A stretch of 64,000 nucleotides of DNA from Crambe crambe (lineage: Eukaryota; Porifera; Demospongiae; Poecilosclerida; Crambeidae): the NCBI GenBank assembly GCA_963924555.1, contig OZ004584.1, positions 1-64,000 of the forward strand, in the 5' to 3' direction. The notes under the pieces are model-generated. The model was not told the origin of the DNA, did not search any database, and was given only the letters and a program-made list of their open reading frames with translations. This document shows positions 1-15,912 of this stretch, in pieces (the first letter of the stretch is position 1; each line of letters starts with the position of its first letter). The position numbers were made by a program, and so were the translations under genes.

Positions 1-3000
1 CCCTAGCCCTATCCCTAGCCCTAGCCCTAGCCCTAGCCCTAGCCCTAGCCCTAGCCCTAGCCCTAGCCCTAGCCCTAGCCCTAGCCCTAGCCCTAGCCCT
101 AGCCCTAGCCCTAGCCCTAGCCCTAGCCCTAGCCCTAGCCCTAGCCCTAGCCCTAGCCCTAGCCCTAGCCCTAGCCCTAGCCCTAGCCCTAGCCCTAGCC
201 CTAGCCCTAGCCCTAGCCCTAGCCCTAGCCCTAGCCCTAGCCCTAGCCCTAGCCCTAGCCCTAGCCCTAGCCCTAGCCCTAGCCCTAGCCCTAGCCCTAG
301 CCCTAGCCCTAGCCCTAGCCCTAGCCCTAGCCCTAGCCCTAGCCCTAGCCCTAGCCCTAGCCCTAGCCCTAGCCCTAGCCCTAGCCCTAGCCCTAGCCCT
401 AGCCCTAGCCCTAGCCCTAGCCCTAGCCCTAGCCCTAGCCCTAGCCCTAGCCCTAGCCCTAGCCCTAGCCCTAGCCCTAGCCCTAGCCCTAGCCCTAGCC
501 CTAGCCCTAGCCCTAGCCCTAGCCCTAGCCCTAGCCCTAGCCCTAGCCCTAGCCCTAGCCCTAGCCCTAGCCCTAGCCCTAGCCCTAGCCCTAGCCCTAG
601 CCCTAGCCCTAGCCCTAGCCCTAGCCCTAGCCCTAGCCCTAGCCCTAGCCCTAGCCCTAGCCCTAGCCCTAGCCCTAGCCCTAGCCCTAGCCCTAGCCCT
701 AGCCCTAGCCCTAGCCCTAGCCCTAGCCCTAGCCCTAGCCCTAGCCCTAGCCCTAGCCCTAGCCCTAGCCCTAGCCCTAGCCCTAGCCCTAGCCCTAGCC
801 CTAGCCCTAGCCCTAGCCCTAGCCCTAGCCCTAGCCCTAGCCCTAGCCCTAGCCCTAGCCCTAGCCCTAGCCCTAGCCCTAGCCCTAGCCCTAGCCCTAG
901 CCCTAGCCCTAGCCCTAGCCCTAGCCCTAGCCCTAGCCCTAGCCCTAGCCCTAGCCCTAGCCCTAGCCCTAGCCCTAGCCCTAGCCCTAGCCCTAGCCCT
1001 AGCCCTAGCCCTAGCCCTAGCCCTAGCCCTAGCCCTAGCCCTAGCCCTAGCCCTAGCCCTAGCCCTAGCCCTAGCCCTAGCCCTAGCCCTAGCCCTAGCC
1101 CTAGCCCTAGCCCTAGCCCTAGCCCTAGCCCTAGCCCTAGCCCTAGCCCTAGCCCTAGCCCTAGCCCTAGCCCTAGCCCTAGCCCTAGCCCTAGCCCTAG
1201 CCCTAGCCCTAGCCCTAGCCCTAGCCCTAGCCCTAGCCCTAGCCCTAGCCCTAGCCCTAGCCCTAGCCCTAGCCCTAGCCCTAGCCCTAGCCCTAGCCCT
1301 AGCCCTAGCCCTAGCCCTAGCCCTAGCCCTAGCCCTAGCCCTAGCCCTAGCCCTAGCCCTAGCCCTAGCCCTAGCCCTAGCCCTAGCCCTAGCCCTAGCC
1401 CTAGCCCTAGCCCTAGCCCTAGCCCTAGCCCTAGCCCTAGCCCTAGCCCTAGCCCTAGCCCTAGCCCTAGCCCTAGCCCTAGCCCTAGCCCTAGCCCTAG
1501 CCCTAGCCCTAGCCCTAGCCCTAGCCCTAGCCCTAGCCCTAGCCCTAGCCCTAGCCCTAGCCCTAGCCCTAGCCCTAGCCCTAGCCCTAGCCCTAGCCCT
1601 AGCCCTAGCCCTAGCCCTAGCCCTAGCCCTAGCCCTAGCCCTAGCCCTAGCCCTAGCCCTAGCCCTAGCCCTAGCCCTAGCCCTAGCCCTAGCCCTAGCC
1701 CTAGCCCTAGCCCTAGCCCTAGCCCTAGCCCTAGCCCTAGCCCTAGCCCTAGCCCTAGCCCTAGCCCTAGCCCTAGCCCTAGCCCTAGCCCTAGCCCTAG
1801 CCCTAGCCCTAGCCCTAGCCCTAGCCCTAGCCCTAGCCCTAGCCCTAGCCCTAGCCCTAGCCCTAGCCCTAGCCCTAGCCCTAGCCCTAGCCCTAGCCCT
1901 AGCCCTAGCCCTAGCCCTAGCCCTAGCCCTAGCCCTAGCCCTAGCCCTAGCCCTAGCCCTAGCCCTAGCCCTAGCCCTAGCCCTAGCCCTAGCCCTAGCC
2001 CTAGCCCTAGCCCTAGCCCTAGCCCTAGCCCTAGCCCTAGCCCTAGCCCTAGCCCTAGCCCTAGCCCTAGCCCTAGCCCTAGCCCTAGCCCTAGCCCTAG
2101 CCCTAGCCCTAGCCCTAGCCCTAGCCCTAGCCCTAGCCCTAGCCCTAGCCCTAGCCCTAGCCCTAGCCCTAGCCCTAGCCCTAGCCCTAGCCCTAGCCCT
2201 AGCCCTAGCCCTAGCCCTAGCCCTAGCCCTAGCCCTAGCCCTAGCCCTAGCCCTAGCCCTAGCCCTAGCCCTAGCCCTAGCCCTAGCCCTAGCCCTAGCC
2301 CTAGCCCTAGCCCTAGCCCTAGCCCTAGCCCTAGCCCTAGCCCTAGCCCTAGCCCTAGCCCTAGCCCTAGCCCTAGCCCTAGCCCTAGCCCTAGCCCTAG
2401 CCCTAGCCCTAGCCCTAGCCCTAGCCCTAGCCCTAGCCCTAGCCCTAGCCCTAGCCCTAGCCCTAGCCCTAGCCCTAGCCCTAGCCCTAGCCCTAGCCCT
2501 AGCCCTAGCCCTAGCCCTAGCCCTAGCCCTAGCCCTAGCCCTAGCCCTAGCCCTAGCCCTAGCCCTAGCCCTAGCCCTAGCCCTAGCCCTAGCCCTAGCC
2601 CTAGCCCTAGCCCTAGCCCTAGCCCTAGCCCTAGCCCTAGCCCTAGCCCTAGCCCTAGCCCTAGCCCTAGCCCTAGCCCTAGCCCTAGCCCTAGCCCTAG
2701 CCCTAGCCCTAGCCCTAGCCCTAGCCCTAGCCCTAGCCCTAGCCCTAGCCCTAGCCCTAGCCCTAGCCCTAGCCCTAGCCCTAGCCCTAGCCCTAGCCCT
2801 AGCCCTAGCCCTAGCCCTAGCCCTAGCCCTAGCCCTAGCCCTAGCCCTAGCCCTAGCCCTAGCCCTAGCCCTAGCCCTAGCCCTAGCCCTAGCCCTAGCC
2901 CTAGCCCTAGCCCTAGCCCTAGCCCTAGCCCTAGCCCTAGCCCTAGCCCTAGCCCTAGCCCTAGCCCTAGCCCTAGCCCTAGCCCTAGCCCTAGCCCTAG

Positions 3001-5310
3001 CCCTAGCCCTAGCCCTAGCCCTAGCCCTAGCCCTAGCCCTAGCCCTAGCCCTAGCCCTAGCCCTAGCCCTAGCCCTAGCCCTAGCCCTAGCCCTAGCCCT
3101 AGCCCTAGCCCTAGCCCTAGCCCTAGCCCTAGCCCTAGCCCTAGCCCTAGCCCTAGCCCTAGCCCTAGCCCTAGCCCTAGCCCTAGCCCTAGCCCTAGCC
3201 CTAGCCCTAGCCCTAGCCCTAGCCCTAGCCCTAGCCCTAGCCCTAGCCCTAGCCCTAGCCCTAGCCCTAGCCCTAGCCCTAGCCCTAGCCCTAGCCCTAG
3301 CCCTAGCCCTAGCCCTAGCCCTAGCCCTAGCCCTAGCCCTAGCCCTAGCCCTAGCCCTAGCCCTAGCCCTAGCCCTAGCCCTAGCCCTAGCCCTAGCCCT
3401 AGCCCTAGCCCTAGCCCTAGCCCTAGCCCTAGCCCTAGCCCTAGCCCTAGCCCTAGCCCTAGCCCTAGCCCTAGCCCTAGCCCTAGCCCTAGCCCTAGCC
3501 CTAGCCCTAGCCCTAGCCCTAGCCCTAGCCCTAGCCCTAGCCCTAGCCCTAGCCCTAGCCCTAGCCCTAGCCCTAGCCCTAGCCCTAGCCCTAGCCCTAG
3601 CCCTAGCCCTAGCCCTAGCCCTAGCCCTAGCCCTAGCCCTAGCCCTAGCCCTAGCCCTAGCCCTAGCCCTAGCCCTAGCCCTAGCCCTAGCCCTAGCCCT
3701 AGCCCTAGCCCTAGCCCTAGCCCTAGCCCTAGCCCTAGCCCTAGCCCTAGCCCTAGCCCTAGCCCTAGCCCTAGCCCTAGCCCTAGCCCTAGCCCTAGCC
3801 CTAGCCCTAGCCCTAGCCCTAGCCCTAGCCCTAGCCCTAGCCCTAGCCCTAGCCCTAGCCCTAGCCCTAGCCCTAGCCCTAGCCCTAGCCCTAGCCCTAG
3901 CCCTAGCCCTAGCCCTAGCCCTAGCCCTAGCCCTAGCCCTAGCCCTAGCCCTAGCCCTAGCCCTAGCCCTAGCCCTAGCCCTAGCCCTAGCCCTAGCCCT
4001 AGCCCTAGCCCTAGCCCTAGCCCTAGCCCTAGCCCTAGCCCTAGCCCTAGCCCTAGCCCTAGCCCTAGCCCTAGCCCTAGCCCTAGCCCTAGCCCTAGCC
4101 CTAGCCCTAGCCCTAGCCCTAGCCCTAGCCCTAGCCCTAGCCCTAGCCCTAGCCCTAGCCCTAGCCCTAGCCCTAGCCCTAGCCCTAGCCCTAGCCCTAG
4201 CCCTAGCCCTAGCCCTAGCCCTAGCCCTAGCCCTAGCCCTAGCCCTAGCCCTAGCCCTAGCCCTAGCCCTAGCCCTAGCCCTAGCCCTAGCCCTAGCCCT
4301 AGCCCTAGCCCTAGCCCTAGCCCTAGCCCTAGCCCTAGCCCTAGCCCTAGCCCTAGCCCTAGCCCTAGCCCTAGCCCTAGCCCTAGCCCTAGCCCTAGCC
4401 CTAGCCCTAGCCCTAGCCCTAGCCCTAGCCCTAGCCCTAGCCCTAGCCCTAGCCCTAGCCCTAGCCCTAGCCCTAGCCCTAGCCCTAGCCCTAGCCCTAG
4501 CCCTAGCCCTAGCCCTAGCCCTAGCCCTAGCCCTAGCCCTAGCCCTAGCCCTAGCCCTAGCCCTAGCCCTAGCCCTAGCCCTAGCCCTAGCCCTAGCCCT
4601 AGCCCTAGCCCTAGCCCTAGCCCTAGCCCTAGCCCTAGCCCTAGCCCTAGCCCTAGCCCTAGCCCTAGCCCTAGCCCTAGCCCTAGCCCTAGCCCTAGCC
4701 CTAGCCCTAGCCCTAGCCCTAGCCCTAGCCCTAGCCCTAGCCCTAGCCCTAGCCCTAGCCCTAGCCCTAGCCCTAGCCCTAGCCCTAGCCCTAGCCCTAG
4801 CCCTAGCCCTAGCCCTAGCCCTAGCCCTAGCCCTAGCCCTAGCCCTAGCCCTAGCCCTAGCCCTAGCCCTAGCCCTAGCCCTAGCCCTAGCCCTAGCCCT
4901 AGCCCTAGCCCTAGCCCTAGCCCTAGCCCTAGCCCTAGCCCTAGCCCTAGCCCTAGCCCTAGCCCTAGCCCTAGCCCTAGCCCTAGCCCTAGCCCTAGCC
5001 CTAGCCCTAGCCCTAGCCCTAGCCCTAGCCCTAGCCCTAGCCCTAGCCCTAGCCCTAGCCCTAGCCCTAGCCCTAGCCCTAGCCCTAGCCCTAGCCCTAG
5101 CCCTAGCCCTAGCCCTAGCCCTAGCCCTAGCCCTAGCCCTAGCCCTAGCCCTAGCCCTAGCCCTAGCCCTAGCCCTAGCCCTAGCCCTAGCCCTAGCCCT
5201 AGCCCTAGCCCTAGCCCTAGCCCTAGCCCTAGCCCTAGCCCTAGCCCTAGCCCTAGCCCTAGCCCTAGCCCTAGCCCTAGCCCTAGCCCTAGCCCTAGCC
5301 CTAGCCCTAG
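1..5310. repeat. Telomere, (CCCTAG)n, 885 units
   Basis: The window begins with uninterrupted head-to-tail CCCTAG hexamers. The only deviation I see is the second unit (bases 7-12), which reads CCCTAT. With the C-rich strand running inward from base 1, the G-rich strand reads CTAGGG toward the chromosome end, which is the correct polarity for a left telomere. The array stops sharply at 5310 and unique sequence follows. The hexamer differs by one base from the usual animal repeat (CCCTAA/TTAGGG). Length and purity fit a telomerase-made array; an internal satellite is unlikely because the array starts at base 1. Confidence 0.95.
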
Positions 5311-5844
5311 CTATGGAGTGGGGGATGCCTGAGGTTTTGCCTCACCTAACCTAGAGAAACCTAGGTTCCCTTAGGGCTAAAAATCGCCCCCATGCCGAGA
5401 AACCTTGGCCCTTGAGGGCAAAATCGATCTCGAAAACTAGGGATTTAAAGAAAACTGAAGAAACCTCAGGTTTAACCTGAGGTTAGGTTTCGAGCCTGAG
5501 GGCAAACCTGATAAACATGGGGGCCAGGTTCGGTAGCATGAGGGAAATATCCCTAAAGCTACCTTAACCTTGCCCTCATGAGCACCCGGTTATCCCTCGT
5601 GGCAACATAACCTGGCCCTTAGGACTAAAAACTGGTCTTATTTTGAGTTGAGGGATGGTTTTGATGCCACAAGGGTCAGGTTACCAACCTTGGGGGATAA
5701 CCTACAGTTTTCTTTTGAGCAAGGCCCTCATGGCATCCCTCATGGATAATATCGAGCCCTAATGGCTAAAAAAACGTCCCTTAGGACTAAAAAAATGCCC
5801 TCACGGCTAAATTCGAGGCCCCCATGGTCGTTTTCGACCAATTA
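5311..5844. other. Telomere-adjacent subtelomeric sequence, no gene
   Basis: About 530 bp lie between the telomere and the first satellite. There is no usable reading frame. The sequence is rich in short words such as AACCT, CCTAACC, CCCTTAGG and CCTCATGG, which recur in the satellites further in. It looks like degenerate satellite, not a unique gene region. Confidence 0.7.
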
Positions 5845-8510
5845 TCAAACCTGATCAAACCTGATCAAACCTAGGGGGCCCCAAAAATAGCCATGAATGG
5901 GTAGAAAACAGTCAGGAGGGATAACCTGAGAAGCATGGGGGATAACCTCTGAATAAAATCCCCCCAGGACATTTAACCTTGCCCCCATGAGCACTACAGA
6001 TCCCCCAGGGGGTGTACATTTGCCCTTCGGGCCGATTTTGACCTCTAACCTCAACCTAACCTAACCTGAACCTAACCTGAAGAAACCTGAATGGGTGGAA
6101 AACAGTCAGGAGGGATAACCTGAGAAGCATGAGGGATAATTTCGTGGTAATCCAGATGAAAATGCCCCCAGGACAGCTAACCCTGCCCTCATGTACCATA
6201 GAGATCCCCTAGGGGGTGTACATATGCCCTTAGGGCTGATTTGGACCTCTAACCTCAACCTAACCTCAACCTAACCTAACCTGAAGAAACCTGAAGAAAC
6301 CTGAAGAAACCTGAATGGGTGGAAAACAGTCAGGAGGGATAACCTGAGAAGCATGAGGGATAATTTCGTGGTAATCCAGATGAAATTGCCCCCAGGACAG
6401 CTAACCCTGCCCCCATGTGCCTTAGAGATCCCCTAGGGGGTGTACATATGCCCTTAGGGCCGATTTGGACCTCTAACCTCAACCTAACCTCAACCTAACC
6501 TAACCTGAAGAAACCTGAAGAAACCTGAATGGGTGGAAAACAGTCAGGAGGGATAACCTGAGAAGCATGAGGGATAATTTCGTGGTAATCCAGATGAAAT
6601 TGCCCCCAGGACAGCTAACCCTGCCCCCATGTGCCATAGAGATCCCCTAGGGGGTGTACATATGCCCTTAGGGCCGATTTGGACCTCTAACCTCAACCTA
6701 ACCTCAACCTAACCTAACCTGAAGAAACCTGAAGAAACCTGAAGAAACCTGAATGGGTGGAAAACAGTCAGGAGGGATAACCTGAGAAGCATGAGGGATA
6801 ACCTCGTGGTAGTCCGGATGAAAATGCCCCCAGGACAGCTAACCCTGCCCTCATGTGCCATAGAGATCCCCTAGGGGGTGTACATATGCCCTTCAGGCCG
6901 ATTTGGACCTCTAACCTCAACCTAACCTCAACCTAACCTAACCTGAAGAAACCTGAAGAAACCTGAAGAAACCTGAATGGGTGGAAAACAGTCAGGAGGG
7001 ATAACCCGAGAGGCATGGGGGATAACCTCGTGGTAGTCCGGATGAAAATGCCCCCAGGACAGCTAACCCTGCCCTCATGTACCATAGAGATCCCCTAGGG
7101 GGTGTACATATGCCCTTAGGGCCGATTTGGACCTCTAACCTCAACCTAACCTCAACCTAACCTAACCTGAAGAAACCTGAAGAAACCTGAAGAAACCTGA
7201 ATGGGTGGAAAACAGTCAGGAGGGATAACCTGAGAAGCATGAGGGATAATTTCGTGGTAATCCAGATGAAATTGCCCCCAGGACAGCTAACCCTGCCCCC
7301 ATGTGCCATAGAGATCCCCTAGGGGGTGTACATATGCCCTTAGGGCCGATTTGGACCTCTAACCTCAACCTAACCTCAACCTAACCTAACCTGAAGAAAC
7401 CTGAAGAAACCTGAATGGGTGGAAAACAGTCAGGAGGGATAACCTGAGAAGCATGAGGGATAATTTCGTGGTAATCCAGATGAAATTGCCCCCAGGACAG
7501 CTAACCCTGCCCCCATGTGCCATAGAGATCCCCTAGGGGGTGTACATATGCCCTTAGGGCCGATTTGGACCTCTAACCTCAACCTAACCTCAACCTAACC
7601 TAACCTGAAGAAACCTGAAGAAACCTGAATGGGTGGAAAACAGTCAGGAGGGATAACCTGAGAAGCATGAGGGATAATTTCGTGGTAATCCAGATGAAAT
7701 TGCCCCCAGGACAGCTAACCCTGCCCCCATGTGCCATAGAGATCCCCTAGAGGGTGTACATATGCCCTTAGGGCCGATTTGGACCTCTAACCTCAACCTA
7801 ACCTCAACCTAACCTAACCTGAAGAAACCTGAAGAAACCTGAAGAAACCTGAATGGGTGGAAAACAGTCAGGAGGGATAACCTGAGAAGCATGAGGGATA
7901 ACTTCGTGGTAGTCCGGATGAAAATGCCCCCAGGACAGCTAACCCTGCCCTCATGTGCCATAGAGATCCCCTAGGGGGTGTACATATGCCCTTCAGGCCG
8001 ATTTGGACCTCTAACCTCAACCTAACCTCAACCTAACCTAACCTGAAGAAACCTGAAGAAACCTGAAGAAACCTGAATGGGTGGAAAACAGTCAGGAGGG
8101 ATAACCCGAGAGGCATGGGGGATAACCTCGTGGTAGTCCGGATGAAAATGCCCCCAGGACAGCTAACCCTGCCCTCATGTACCATAGAGATCCCCTAGGG
8201 GGTGTACATATGCCCTTAGGGCCGATTTGGACCTCTAACCTCAACCTAACCTCAACCTAACCTAACCTGAAGAAACCTGAAGAAACCTGAAGAAACCTGA
8301 ATGGGTGGAAAACAGTCAGGAGGGATAACCTGAGAAGCATGAGGGATAATTTCGTGGTAATCCAGATGAAATTGCCCCCAGGACAGCTAACCCTGCCCCC
8401 ATGTGCCATAGAGATCCCCTAGGGGGTGTACATATGCCCTTCGGGCCGATTTGGACCTCTAACCTCAACCTAACCTAACCTGAACCTAACCTGAAGAAAC
8501 CTGAAGAAAT
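5845..8510. repeat. Subtelomeric satellite, 214/224-bp units, about 12 copies
   Basis: The word ATGGGTGGAAAACAGTC recurs at 6091, 6315, 6529, 6753, 6977, 7201, 7415, 7629, 7853, 8077 and 8301, with a diverged copy near 5897. Spacing is 214 or 224 bp; the 10-bp difference is one more or fewer copy of an inner GAAGAAACCT repeat. Units fall into two types: one with TTTCGTGGTAATCCAGATG and one with CTCGTGGTAGTCCGGATG or close variants. The type order repeats along the array, so it also grew by block duplication. Each unit carries a stretch of AACCTCAACCTAACC words. No coding potential. Confidence 0.93.
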
Positions 8511-8525
8511 CTGAGGGCTTATCTC

Positions 8526-13863: not shown

Positions 13864-13923
13864 CCCTAGCCCTAGCCCTAGCCCTAGCCCTAGCCCTAGC
13901 CCTAGCTCTAGCCCTAGCCCTAG
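13864..13923. repeat. Interstitial telomeric tract, 10 CCCTAG units
   Basis: Nine CCCTAG units and one CTCTAG (13906-13911) lie in the same orientation as the terminal telomere. The tract repeats the unusual hexamer, not CCCTAA. Its last TAG is also the first three bases of the following 20-bp repeat, so the two arrays join without a gap. It could be a healed break, an old chromosome end, or a telomere-derived insertion. Confidence 0.93.
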
Positions 13924-14240
13924 ATATGGTGGGCATCAATTAGATATGGTGGGCATCAATTAGATATGGTGGGCATCAATTAGATATGGTGGGCATCAAT
14001 TAGATATGGTGGGCATCAATTAGATATGGTGGGCATCAATTAGATATGGTGGGCATCAATTAGATATGGTGGGCATCAATTAGATATGGTGGGCATCAAT
14101 TAGATATGGTGGGCATCAATTAGATATGGTGGGCATCAATTAGATATGGTGGGCATCAATTAGATATGGTGGGCATCAATTAGATATGGTGGGCATCAAT
14201 TAGATATGGTGGGCATCAATTAGATATGGTGGGCATCTAT
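13921..14240. repeat. 20-bp tandem repeat, 16 copies
   Basis: Sixteen copies of TAGATATGGTGGGCATCAAT follow each other exactly; only the last differs (CATCTAT). About 1.7 copies occur at 17059-17095 at the start of the second segmental duplicate. The identity of the units implies very recent expansion or strong homogenisation. Confidence 0.95.
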
Positions 14241-15912
14241 TGGAGAAATATGCGTAGTTGGTAATTGACATGCGCAATTGTCTTAAATATGTGTGTTAAG
14301 AAAAGTTGAACAAAATGTGGGTGAATATTTCAAAAGTTAATAGTGAAGAGACTATTCTGGATAGTTGAACTTTGTCGAAATGGACAAAATATGCATATTA
14401 GCAGAAAGCTTACACAGAGAGCAATATTATGATATCAAAATTATATGTATATACTTGATATTTCAAAAGTTATGATAGCCAGAATTCACCATCAGTTATG
14501 AACTTTGAAGAAACATTACCATATTTTTTAATTATCGGAATGGAGAAAGTAAGCATATGAACAGAAAGCATACATAAAGAGTAATGCTATGGTATTAAAA
14601 TTATATGTATATAAATATTTCAAAAGTTATGATAGCCAGAAGTCACCATAAGTTGAGTAGGTTGGAATTTTGACAACCCTTTACCATTGTTTTAAAAATT
14701 ATCGGAATGGAGAAAGTAAGCATATGAACAGAAAGCTTACGTAAAGAACAATGCTATGATATCGAAATTATCTGTATACACTTGATATTTCAAAAGTTGT
14801 TAATCGTCAGTTATTTTGAAGACCTTTTACAATATATATTCGAATTATCAGTATGGCTAAACTAAGCATATCGATAGAAAGCTTAAACAGAGGGCAATGC
14901 TATTATATTTCTTTATATTTCAAAAATTTTGATGGAATGAAAGTATTGTGGGTATCATATTTTACTGATATCCACATATTAAACATGTGATCAGAAAGTA
15001 CACACAGAGAGCAATGTACTGATATTAAAATTATCTGTATAGACCTAACAAAAACATTATGAGAGCGAAAAGAAAATTCTATATTATAGAGGTACCGTCT
15101 ATGTGTATTTTAAAGTTAGCTGAAATGGCACAACTGGCTCGGTTTGAGGTATGAAATTAATCGCTTGTAACCGGTTACGTGGGCTTCTGGGGTTACGACC
15201 GATGCAGACTGGGGCAGAGTACTTGCTATCATGAATTCTGATAATGCAGTGAAGTGTCTTTTTCCACCCTTGTAACCATCCAATCTGGAGGCAAGTTTCC
15301 AATGTTTTTGTATTTTATGATGTAGCAATGATACAGCACTTGTTATATAGAAATGTTGAATCTCGAGGCAAGTGTCTATTAACCGTCCAATCGTGAGACA
15401 AGTTTCTAATCACAAGTTTCCAATGTAGCCACACCCATTTAGGGGGTGTCTCCAAACTATTTTTGGAAAATGTAATGTCATTGACATTATATTCTGACCC
15501 CTCCCTCCCCCACCTTGTAATGTCCCATAGTCGTTAGGCTATTGGCATAGACTAAAATCATTATAGTATGACGTGTATGAGAAAAACTGATTTGTGCTAT
15601 TAGCTTTTCAAACAAACGGGGCAAACGAATCTGGATTGGTATACCGAAAGGGATATTTTTCTGGGAGACACCTAATGTGTGTCCAGTCGATGAAGCTTCC
15701 ACCCATGTGTCTCCTTCTTCGTCTTTCTTTCCAAAACCACAAGCAATGCACACTTCTTTATCAGTTGATGTAGCTAGGTTCGCCAACAGCTGTAGCAGAC
15801 GTGGGTTTTCCAGTTACTGGATCCACCGGTCGAAGTAAGTTCACCGACAGCCGTAGCAGACGTGGGTCTACTGGTTGTCGTGGATCCACCAGTTGCTGTA
15901 GCTAACGTGGAC
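14241..15912. repeat. Segmental duplicate A
   Basis: From TGGAGAAATATGCGTAGTTG this segment aligns by eye with 17091-18640 along its whole length, with many substitutions and small indels. It contains about five internal degenerate units of 150-180 bp marked by AGAAAGCTTACACAGAGAGC, against four in the other copy. The right part (15090-15780) has minus-strand open frames matched in the second copy, and 15780-15912 contains the GGATCCACCAGTTGCTGTAG minisatellite. It ends at the transposon insertion. Confidence 0.8.
15487..15786 (-). CDS. Possible exon or decayed gene in duplicate A
   Basis: A 99-residue frame runs from MANLATSTDKEVCIACGFG through a short acidic patch (KKDEEGDTW) to VSQKNIPFGI. 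The matching part of duplicate B (18237-18431, minus) keeps VSQKNIPFGI and SFxxTRHTI but has a frame shift before it. I do not recognise a family. Conservation of the central words between the duplicates could reflect past coding, or only recent duplication. Read as a hypothetical or pseudogenic fragment. Confidence 0.2.
   Translation of the reverse strand: MANLATSTDKEVCIACGFGKKDEEGDTWVEASSTGHTLGVSQKNIPFGIPIQIRLPRLFEKLIAQISFSHTRHTIMILVYANSLTTMGHYKVGEGGVRI

Follow-up and report, generated by a model that had tools for sequence, protein, structure and literature searches.

The window considered here is a stretch of 64,000 nucleotides at the start of the chromosome-size contig OZ004584.1 (C6, 9,083,326 bases), which is chromosome 4 of the demosponge Crambe crambe, and includes the left telomere of this chromosome. 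It begins with a terminal telomere array (positions 1–5310, minus strand) of 885 units, which read CCCTAG on the plus strand and CTAGGG on the minus strand toward the chromosome end. Tandem Repeats Finder delimits the array at 1–5311 (period 6, 885.2 copies, 99% match), and by base-by-base comparison the single deviation from pure CCCTAG within 1–5310 is at position 12 (unit CCCTAT). A previous reading of the letters alone (the sequence-only reading) had noted 885 CCCTAG units at a chromosome start and the same variant in an interstitial tract, and had concluded that the telomere is built on CTAGGG in place of TTAGGG. Both observations could be confirmed, the interstitial (CTAGGG)10 tract lying at 13864–13923 (minus strand, 10 copies, 96% match, Tandem Repeats Finder), and the conclusion holds genome-wide. 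We consider it very likely that CTAGGG is the main telomere repeat of C. crambe, that it is real and terminal, and that it is kept by telomerase.

The assembly analysed comprises 143,139,886 bases in 119 contigs, 18 of them of chromosome size; the accessible text of the genome note gives 143.20 Mb, 124 scaffolds and 18 chromosomes (PMC12166358). Four exact CCCTAG units have 40,889 matches in it (21,790 forward and 19,099 reverse; roughly 245 kb if tiled), whereas by letter count about a millionth of a match is expected by chance for an exact 24-base word in 143 Mb, and the same four-unit pattern read backwards as a control has no match in the assembly. For the comparison of chromosome ends, 9 kb were read at the start of each of 17 chromosome contigs, the window serving as the 18th, and 400 bases at the far end of each of the 18. 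Terminal CTAGGG arrays in telomeric orientation are present at 28 of the 36 ends: the array starts at base 1 in 15 of the 18 contig starts and takes up the 400 bases read at 13 of the 18 contig ends (C3, C5, C6, C8, C9, C11, C12, C14, C15, C16, C18, C19 and C20). It is the C-strand (CCCTAG) that is read at contig starts and the G-strand (CTAGGG) at contig ends, i.e., the G-rich strand runs 5′ to 3′ toward the end. Four TTAGGG units, by comparison, have two matches in 143 Mb, one per strand and both internal, and at none of the 36 ends was a TTAGGG array found in the stretches read, a lone TTAGGG hexamer being present within the final 400 bases of C10. An internal location of the array and TTAGGG arrays at other ends, both of which the sequence-only reading had thought of as objections, are thus not what the chromosome ends show; judged by its end arrays, C. 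crambe does not have the canonical TTAGGG telomere.

The arrays are almost free of variant units. In the 15 start arrays there are 15,327 exact units versus 49 interruptions in all, which comprise short indels, incomplete units at the outer end, four units with one substituted base (CCCTAT each time) and a single site at which CCCTAA occurs twice. Array length in the assembly is 4.8 to 9.0 kb with a median of 5.7 kb, values which are lower bounds because assemblies shorten arrays, and the start array of C21 extends beyond the 9 kb read. It should be noted that nanopore miscalling of telomere repeats is known, and the sequence-only reading had itself raised the possibility of a base-calling artefact in which T was turned into C; more widely, errors of sequencing or assembly could have made CTAGGG out of a TTAGGG telomere. 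However, the miscalls reported in the accessible part of that work are other motifs (TTAAAA, CTTCTT and CCCTGG) and are absent from HiFi data (PMC9414165), and the genome note, in the part at hand, describes a PacBio Revio HiFi assembly with a QV of 58.1 (PMC12166358). Start and end arrays, which are on opposite strands, also agree on the unit. In view of so many concordant perfect units against four single-base variants and a few indels, an artefact is extremely improbable.

C. crambe has a gene for telomerase reverse transcriptase (TERT) and two for POT1. TERT, which was read in the region of its RNA-binding domain (PF12009), is found at C6:7555175-7555665 in two pieces (E 1e-13 and 1.9e-6). 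Joined by hand, the pieces match telomerase reverse transcriptases in the PDB over ~116 residues, the best being 4o26_A (E 4.9e-16); another match is 7qxa_A (E 1.3e-15), which we take to be the human enzyme. The two POT1 genes are diverged from each other, and each has a long open frame across the matched domain: one is at C20:502097-502486 (E 7.4e-25; L076) and the other at C21:151856-152215 (E 4.4e-11; L077, C21:150700-152600). The best stretch between the C20 protein and PDB chain 7qxb_P, presumably human POT1, covers residues 5–298 (E 1.3e-32 for the whole sequence).

Several points speak against a CTAGGG telomere kept by telomerase and are taken up one after the other below. Eight of the 36 ends are without a terminal array in the assembly. 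The longer TERT match contains one in-frame TAG, which we provisionally read as an intron. No telomerase RNA candidate was recognised among the 28 of 74 places with the template pattern that were read. A TRF protein was not found in a profile search with PF08558, in which the controls were likewise silent. Finally, the five junctions at which the telomere repeat takes over at CTA are not independent because there are just three satellite variants among them, and they may stem from few events.

The right ends without array are those of C1, C10, C13, C17 and C21. At the start of C15 there is no array in the first 9 kb except three units at 4367, near the start of C1 a tract of 10 units at 1247 precedes head-to-head arrays at C1:17284-20307 (L001), and C12 starts with 760 bases of the 20-bp satellite described below, then CTAGGG and then head-to-head CCCTAG (L019:760-9000), the turning point being a degenerate CTAGGCCTAGG stretch. 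The head-to-head (CTAGGG)n-(CCCTAG)n arrays are either telomere fusions or assembly joins. The right end of C1 breaks off within sequence that belongs to the subtelomere on C5 (95%). Such ends, together with the final ~40 bases of the C6 right end, which are degenerate, the occurrence of interstitial CTAGGG tracts and the fact that the contigs stop within the CTAGGG array, could mean that what closes the contigs is an interstitial or subtelomeric satellite, the true telomere, TTAGGG or other, being located distal to it and missing from the assembly. But in this case one has to reckon with the two internal matches to be all there is of exact four-unit TTAGGG, and in the sequence read 0 of 28 arrays turn into another repeat at their outer end. 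When the eight array-less ends (last 400 or first 760 to 2,000 bases) were scanned at lags 5 to 24, the only tandem repeat was the 20-bp satellite at the C12 start. A distal telomere of another type is for these reasons quite improbable.

Behind the terminal array of the window follows a subtelomere (5311–8514; Tandem Repeats Finder and contig comparison) that includes ~11 copies of a 224-bp repeat at 6074–8514 and resembles the sequence behind the arrays of C8 (94%) and C9 (98%). Additional tandem repeats extend up to 14 kb in the window, where the interstitial tract is joined to 16 copies of a 20-bp satellite, TAGATATGGTGGGCATCAAT, at 13921–14241 (Tandem Repeats Finder). The 20-bp satellite (TGGTGGGCATCAATTAGA..) directly adjoins the telomere array on C5, C11, C14, C18, C19 and C20, is a few bases away from it on C10 and lies behind a short tract on C17, its unit variants differing from chromosome to chromosome. 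Array-adjoining subtelomeres are thus of the 224-bp type (C6, C8, C9) or of the 20-bp satellite type (C5, C10, C11, C14, C17, C18, C19, C20); a further type is common to C3 and C13, and another one is present on C16. Similar subtelomeres are capped by the array at differing points: base 2,004 of the C6 subtelomere corresponds to the first base of the C9 one (the register is uncertain inside the tandem repeat), and base 1,642 of the C13 subtelomere to the first base of the C3 one. On C17 the inner side of the array borders on a 16-nt spacer, GGATCCTTCTCCATGC, behind which come a short CCCTAG tract and then the satellite, and the same order of GGATCCTTCTCCATGC spacer, tract and satellite recurs at 13.85 kb in the window with 8 kb of other subtelomere outside it. 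The interstitial (CTAGGG)10 tract may therefore be a former chromosome end, and such sites in general may reflect former ends and the renewed capping of broken ones, a pattern that recombination between ends could also give.

Fourteen inner edges were read; for seven of them an earlier copy of the adjoining repeat allowed its natural continuation to be predicted. In five of these seven (C5, C11, C14, C19 and C20) CTA is common to the preceding repeat and the telomere before the two depart from each other; on C9 two bases are common and on C18 a single base. Takeover at CTA is as predicted for template-guided addition, with the dependence between the cases mentioned above. The CTA could equally be microhomology used in recombination, and this is one of the points in favor of a different upkeep of a real, terminal CTAGGG repeat, in which recombination or break-induced copying among chromosome ends takes the place of telomerase. 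The subtelomeres common to different chromosomes, the head-to-head arrays close to the starts of C1 and C12 and the telomerase RNA that was not found in the places read fit to this as well. Recombination-maintained human telomeres, however, carry mixed repeats, unlike the arrays of C. crambe with almost no variant units, and the RNA-binding domain of TERT is present and conserved. Maintenance by recombination is in our opinion improbable.

If the CTAGGG arrays are kept by telomerase, an ordinary enzyme would copy a template of the type CUAGCCCUAG, which would be changed in one base per repeat from the TTAGGG-type template. The sequence-only reading had held that the template must specify CUAGCC-type sequence, which we keep as a prediction. 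The telomerase RNA would be expected to contain CUAGCCCUA(GC), and priming would take place on 3′ ends like ...CTA, with GGGCTA added as in GGGCTAGGG. POT1 would cover the single-stranded overhang, and a change in POT1 would probably not be needed, as judged from the efficient in vitro binding of (CTAGGG)n in the accessible part of the report (PMC8492063). The hunt for the telomerase RNA employed a fixed template pattern, which misses templates of less than 11 bases or flanked by C, and yielded 74 places versus 12 for the reversed control. The 28 places read are in 27 regions, 20 long ones with 21 places (C8:2608520-2609010 containing two) and seven short ones with seven. Some of the places are simple sequence rich in TAGC, and at least two pairs are copies of repeats. 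A human-type pseudoknot was not detected in the 20 long regions with a finder of our own, the sensitivity of which is uncalibrated; the seven short regions were judged by eye.

The sequence-only reading had expected compensating changes in the homologues of TRF and POT1. For POT1 this was not borne out: besides the reported in vitro binding, the main differences from the human protein are general among the 36 homologues that were compared with the Crambe protein in human position numbering. Position 31 is E in 29 of the 36 homologues and also in Crambe. Position 36 is Y in none of the 36, V in Crambe and varied elsewhere, and position 89 is H in Crambe and in three of the 36 (P0126, P0129 and P0139); we assume both positions to be DNA contacts. 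The H at position 89 is a candidate for a CTAGGG-related change and should be taken as a lead only. Adaptation is rather expected in the double-strand binder because POT1 binds (CTAGGG)n well while the binding of TRF1 and TRF2 to it is diminished, according to the available parts of these studies (PMC8492063, PMC3919612).

A telobox-like KDxWR pattern, in which an intron within the motif would conceal a gene, has 39 places in the genome versus 15 for the reversed control. Eight were translated as TRF candidates and rejected: four copies on C18 and a place on C6 have, by eye and with no family search made, helicase-like frames, which we take to be of the NFX1/ZNFX1 type; C8:3925885 and C3:4468330 are without a coherent frame; and the eighth belongs to the dominant repeat family. 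The other 31 places are identical to a 22-mer of this family in 24 cases, one base off in three and two bases off in two, and C17:6330005 and C19:6315939 are unrelated to it. The four helicase-like copies on C18 (C18:2780500-2978350; L072–L075) are near-identical and lie within 200 kb, L075 having stops upstream of the common part in the frame read. We also tentatively considered, as a rather unlikely though conceivable course of events, that the one-base template change occurred in Crambe or perhaps in Poecilosclerida more widely and turned all telomeres to CTAGGG, that the double-strand half of shelterin was replaced or lost, and that the two POT1 paralogues do the capping.

The telomere of C. 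crambe is like the TTAGGG telomere of vertebrates and most animals in that it consists of a hexamer in terminal arrays of several kb with the G-rich strand toward the end and is accompanied by TERT and POT1. It differs in that the first base is C rather than T in essentially every unit, so that the unit holds the palindrome CTAG. With respect to this palindrome the sequence-only reading was right. The unit can pair on itself, the predicted folding energy of (CTAGGG)8 being -5.2 kcal/mol versus 0 for (TTAGGG)8; but 200 of 200 shuffled (CTAGGG)8 sequences fold at least equally well, and self-pairing is therefore an effect of composition. The identical hexamer is known from human telomeres, where it is a minority variant among TTAGGG, whereas in Crambe it makes up the entire telomere. 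The human (CTAGGG)n is described, in the sources as far as accessible, as unstable and poorly bound by TRF1 and TRF2 (Mendez-Bermudez 2009 and Lim 2009, via PMC3867476, PMC8492063 and PMC3919612) and as forming an unusual G-quadruplex that contains a G-C-G-C tetrad (PMC3867476, PMC8492063, PMC3919612). Crambe makes it testable whether the instability of (CTAGGG)n lies in the DNA or in its mismatch with the human proteins.

Telomere units have changed in many lineages, and the CTAGGG of Crambe is thus a further variant among such switches. The nematode repeat is TTAGGC. Arthropods have TTAGG, and 8- and 9-bp forms occur in Hymenoptera (as given in the part of PMC8977481 at hand). These cases, nematodes included, are alike in being lineage-wide switches of the unit, with units that differ from CTAGGG. 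For sponges, the review seen in part gives TTAGGG only, by fluorescence in situ hybridization in three species (Sakai 2007, via PMC5793068), and C. crambe adds a clean one-base switch. The sequence-only reading knew of no animal described with this repeat, and CTAGGG as the main telomere repeat of an animal was not found by us either among the open papers that our searches listed, as judged largely by titles and abstract openings. CTAGGG is mentioned neither in the TeloBase paper (the database itself being outside the search) nor in the reviews PMC9498494 and PMC6410037, nor in the accessible part of a study of animal telomerase RNA that covers three sponges (PMC8480181), and the genome note of C. 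crambe, in its accessible text, has no word beginning with "telomer" (PMC12166358).

Elsewhere in the genome, a satellite with a telomere-like core is located internally at C12:247631-247980, where ACTAGCCCTAGCT recurs thirteen times on the minus strand at ~28-base spacing. A protein of the window has at least 120 relatives, one of them from the sponge Oopsacas minuta. The window contains no tRNA and no Rfam match at gathering score, and comparison of the C6 subtelomere with a phage collection gave no megablast match. At least five CTAGGG units were found in 38 stretches of a prokaryote collection and in two of a viral collection, with 5 to 15 units and mostly in bacterial DNA. One of these, a (CTAGGG)5 at L121:5750-5779, is on a contig filed as Cycloclasticus symbiont of Poecilosclerida sp. 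M, the surroundings of which read as DNA of the animal host, the neighbours being presumably a Helitron-type helicase and a CDC5-like exon. Another Poecilosclerida sponge may thus share the CTAGGG unit, to judge from these five units.

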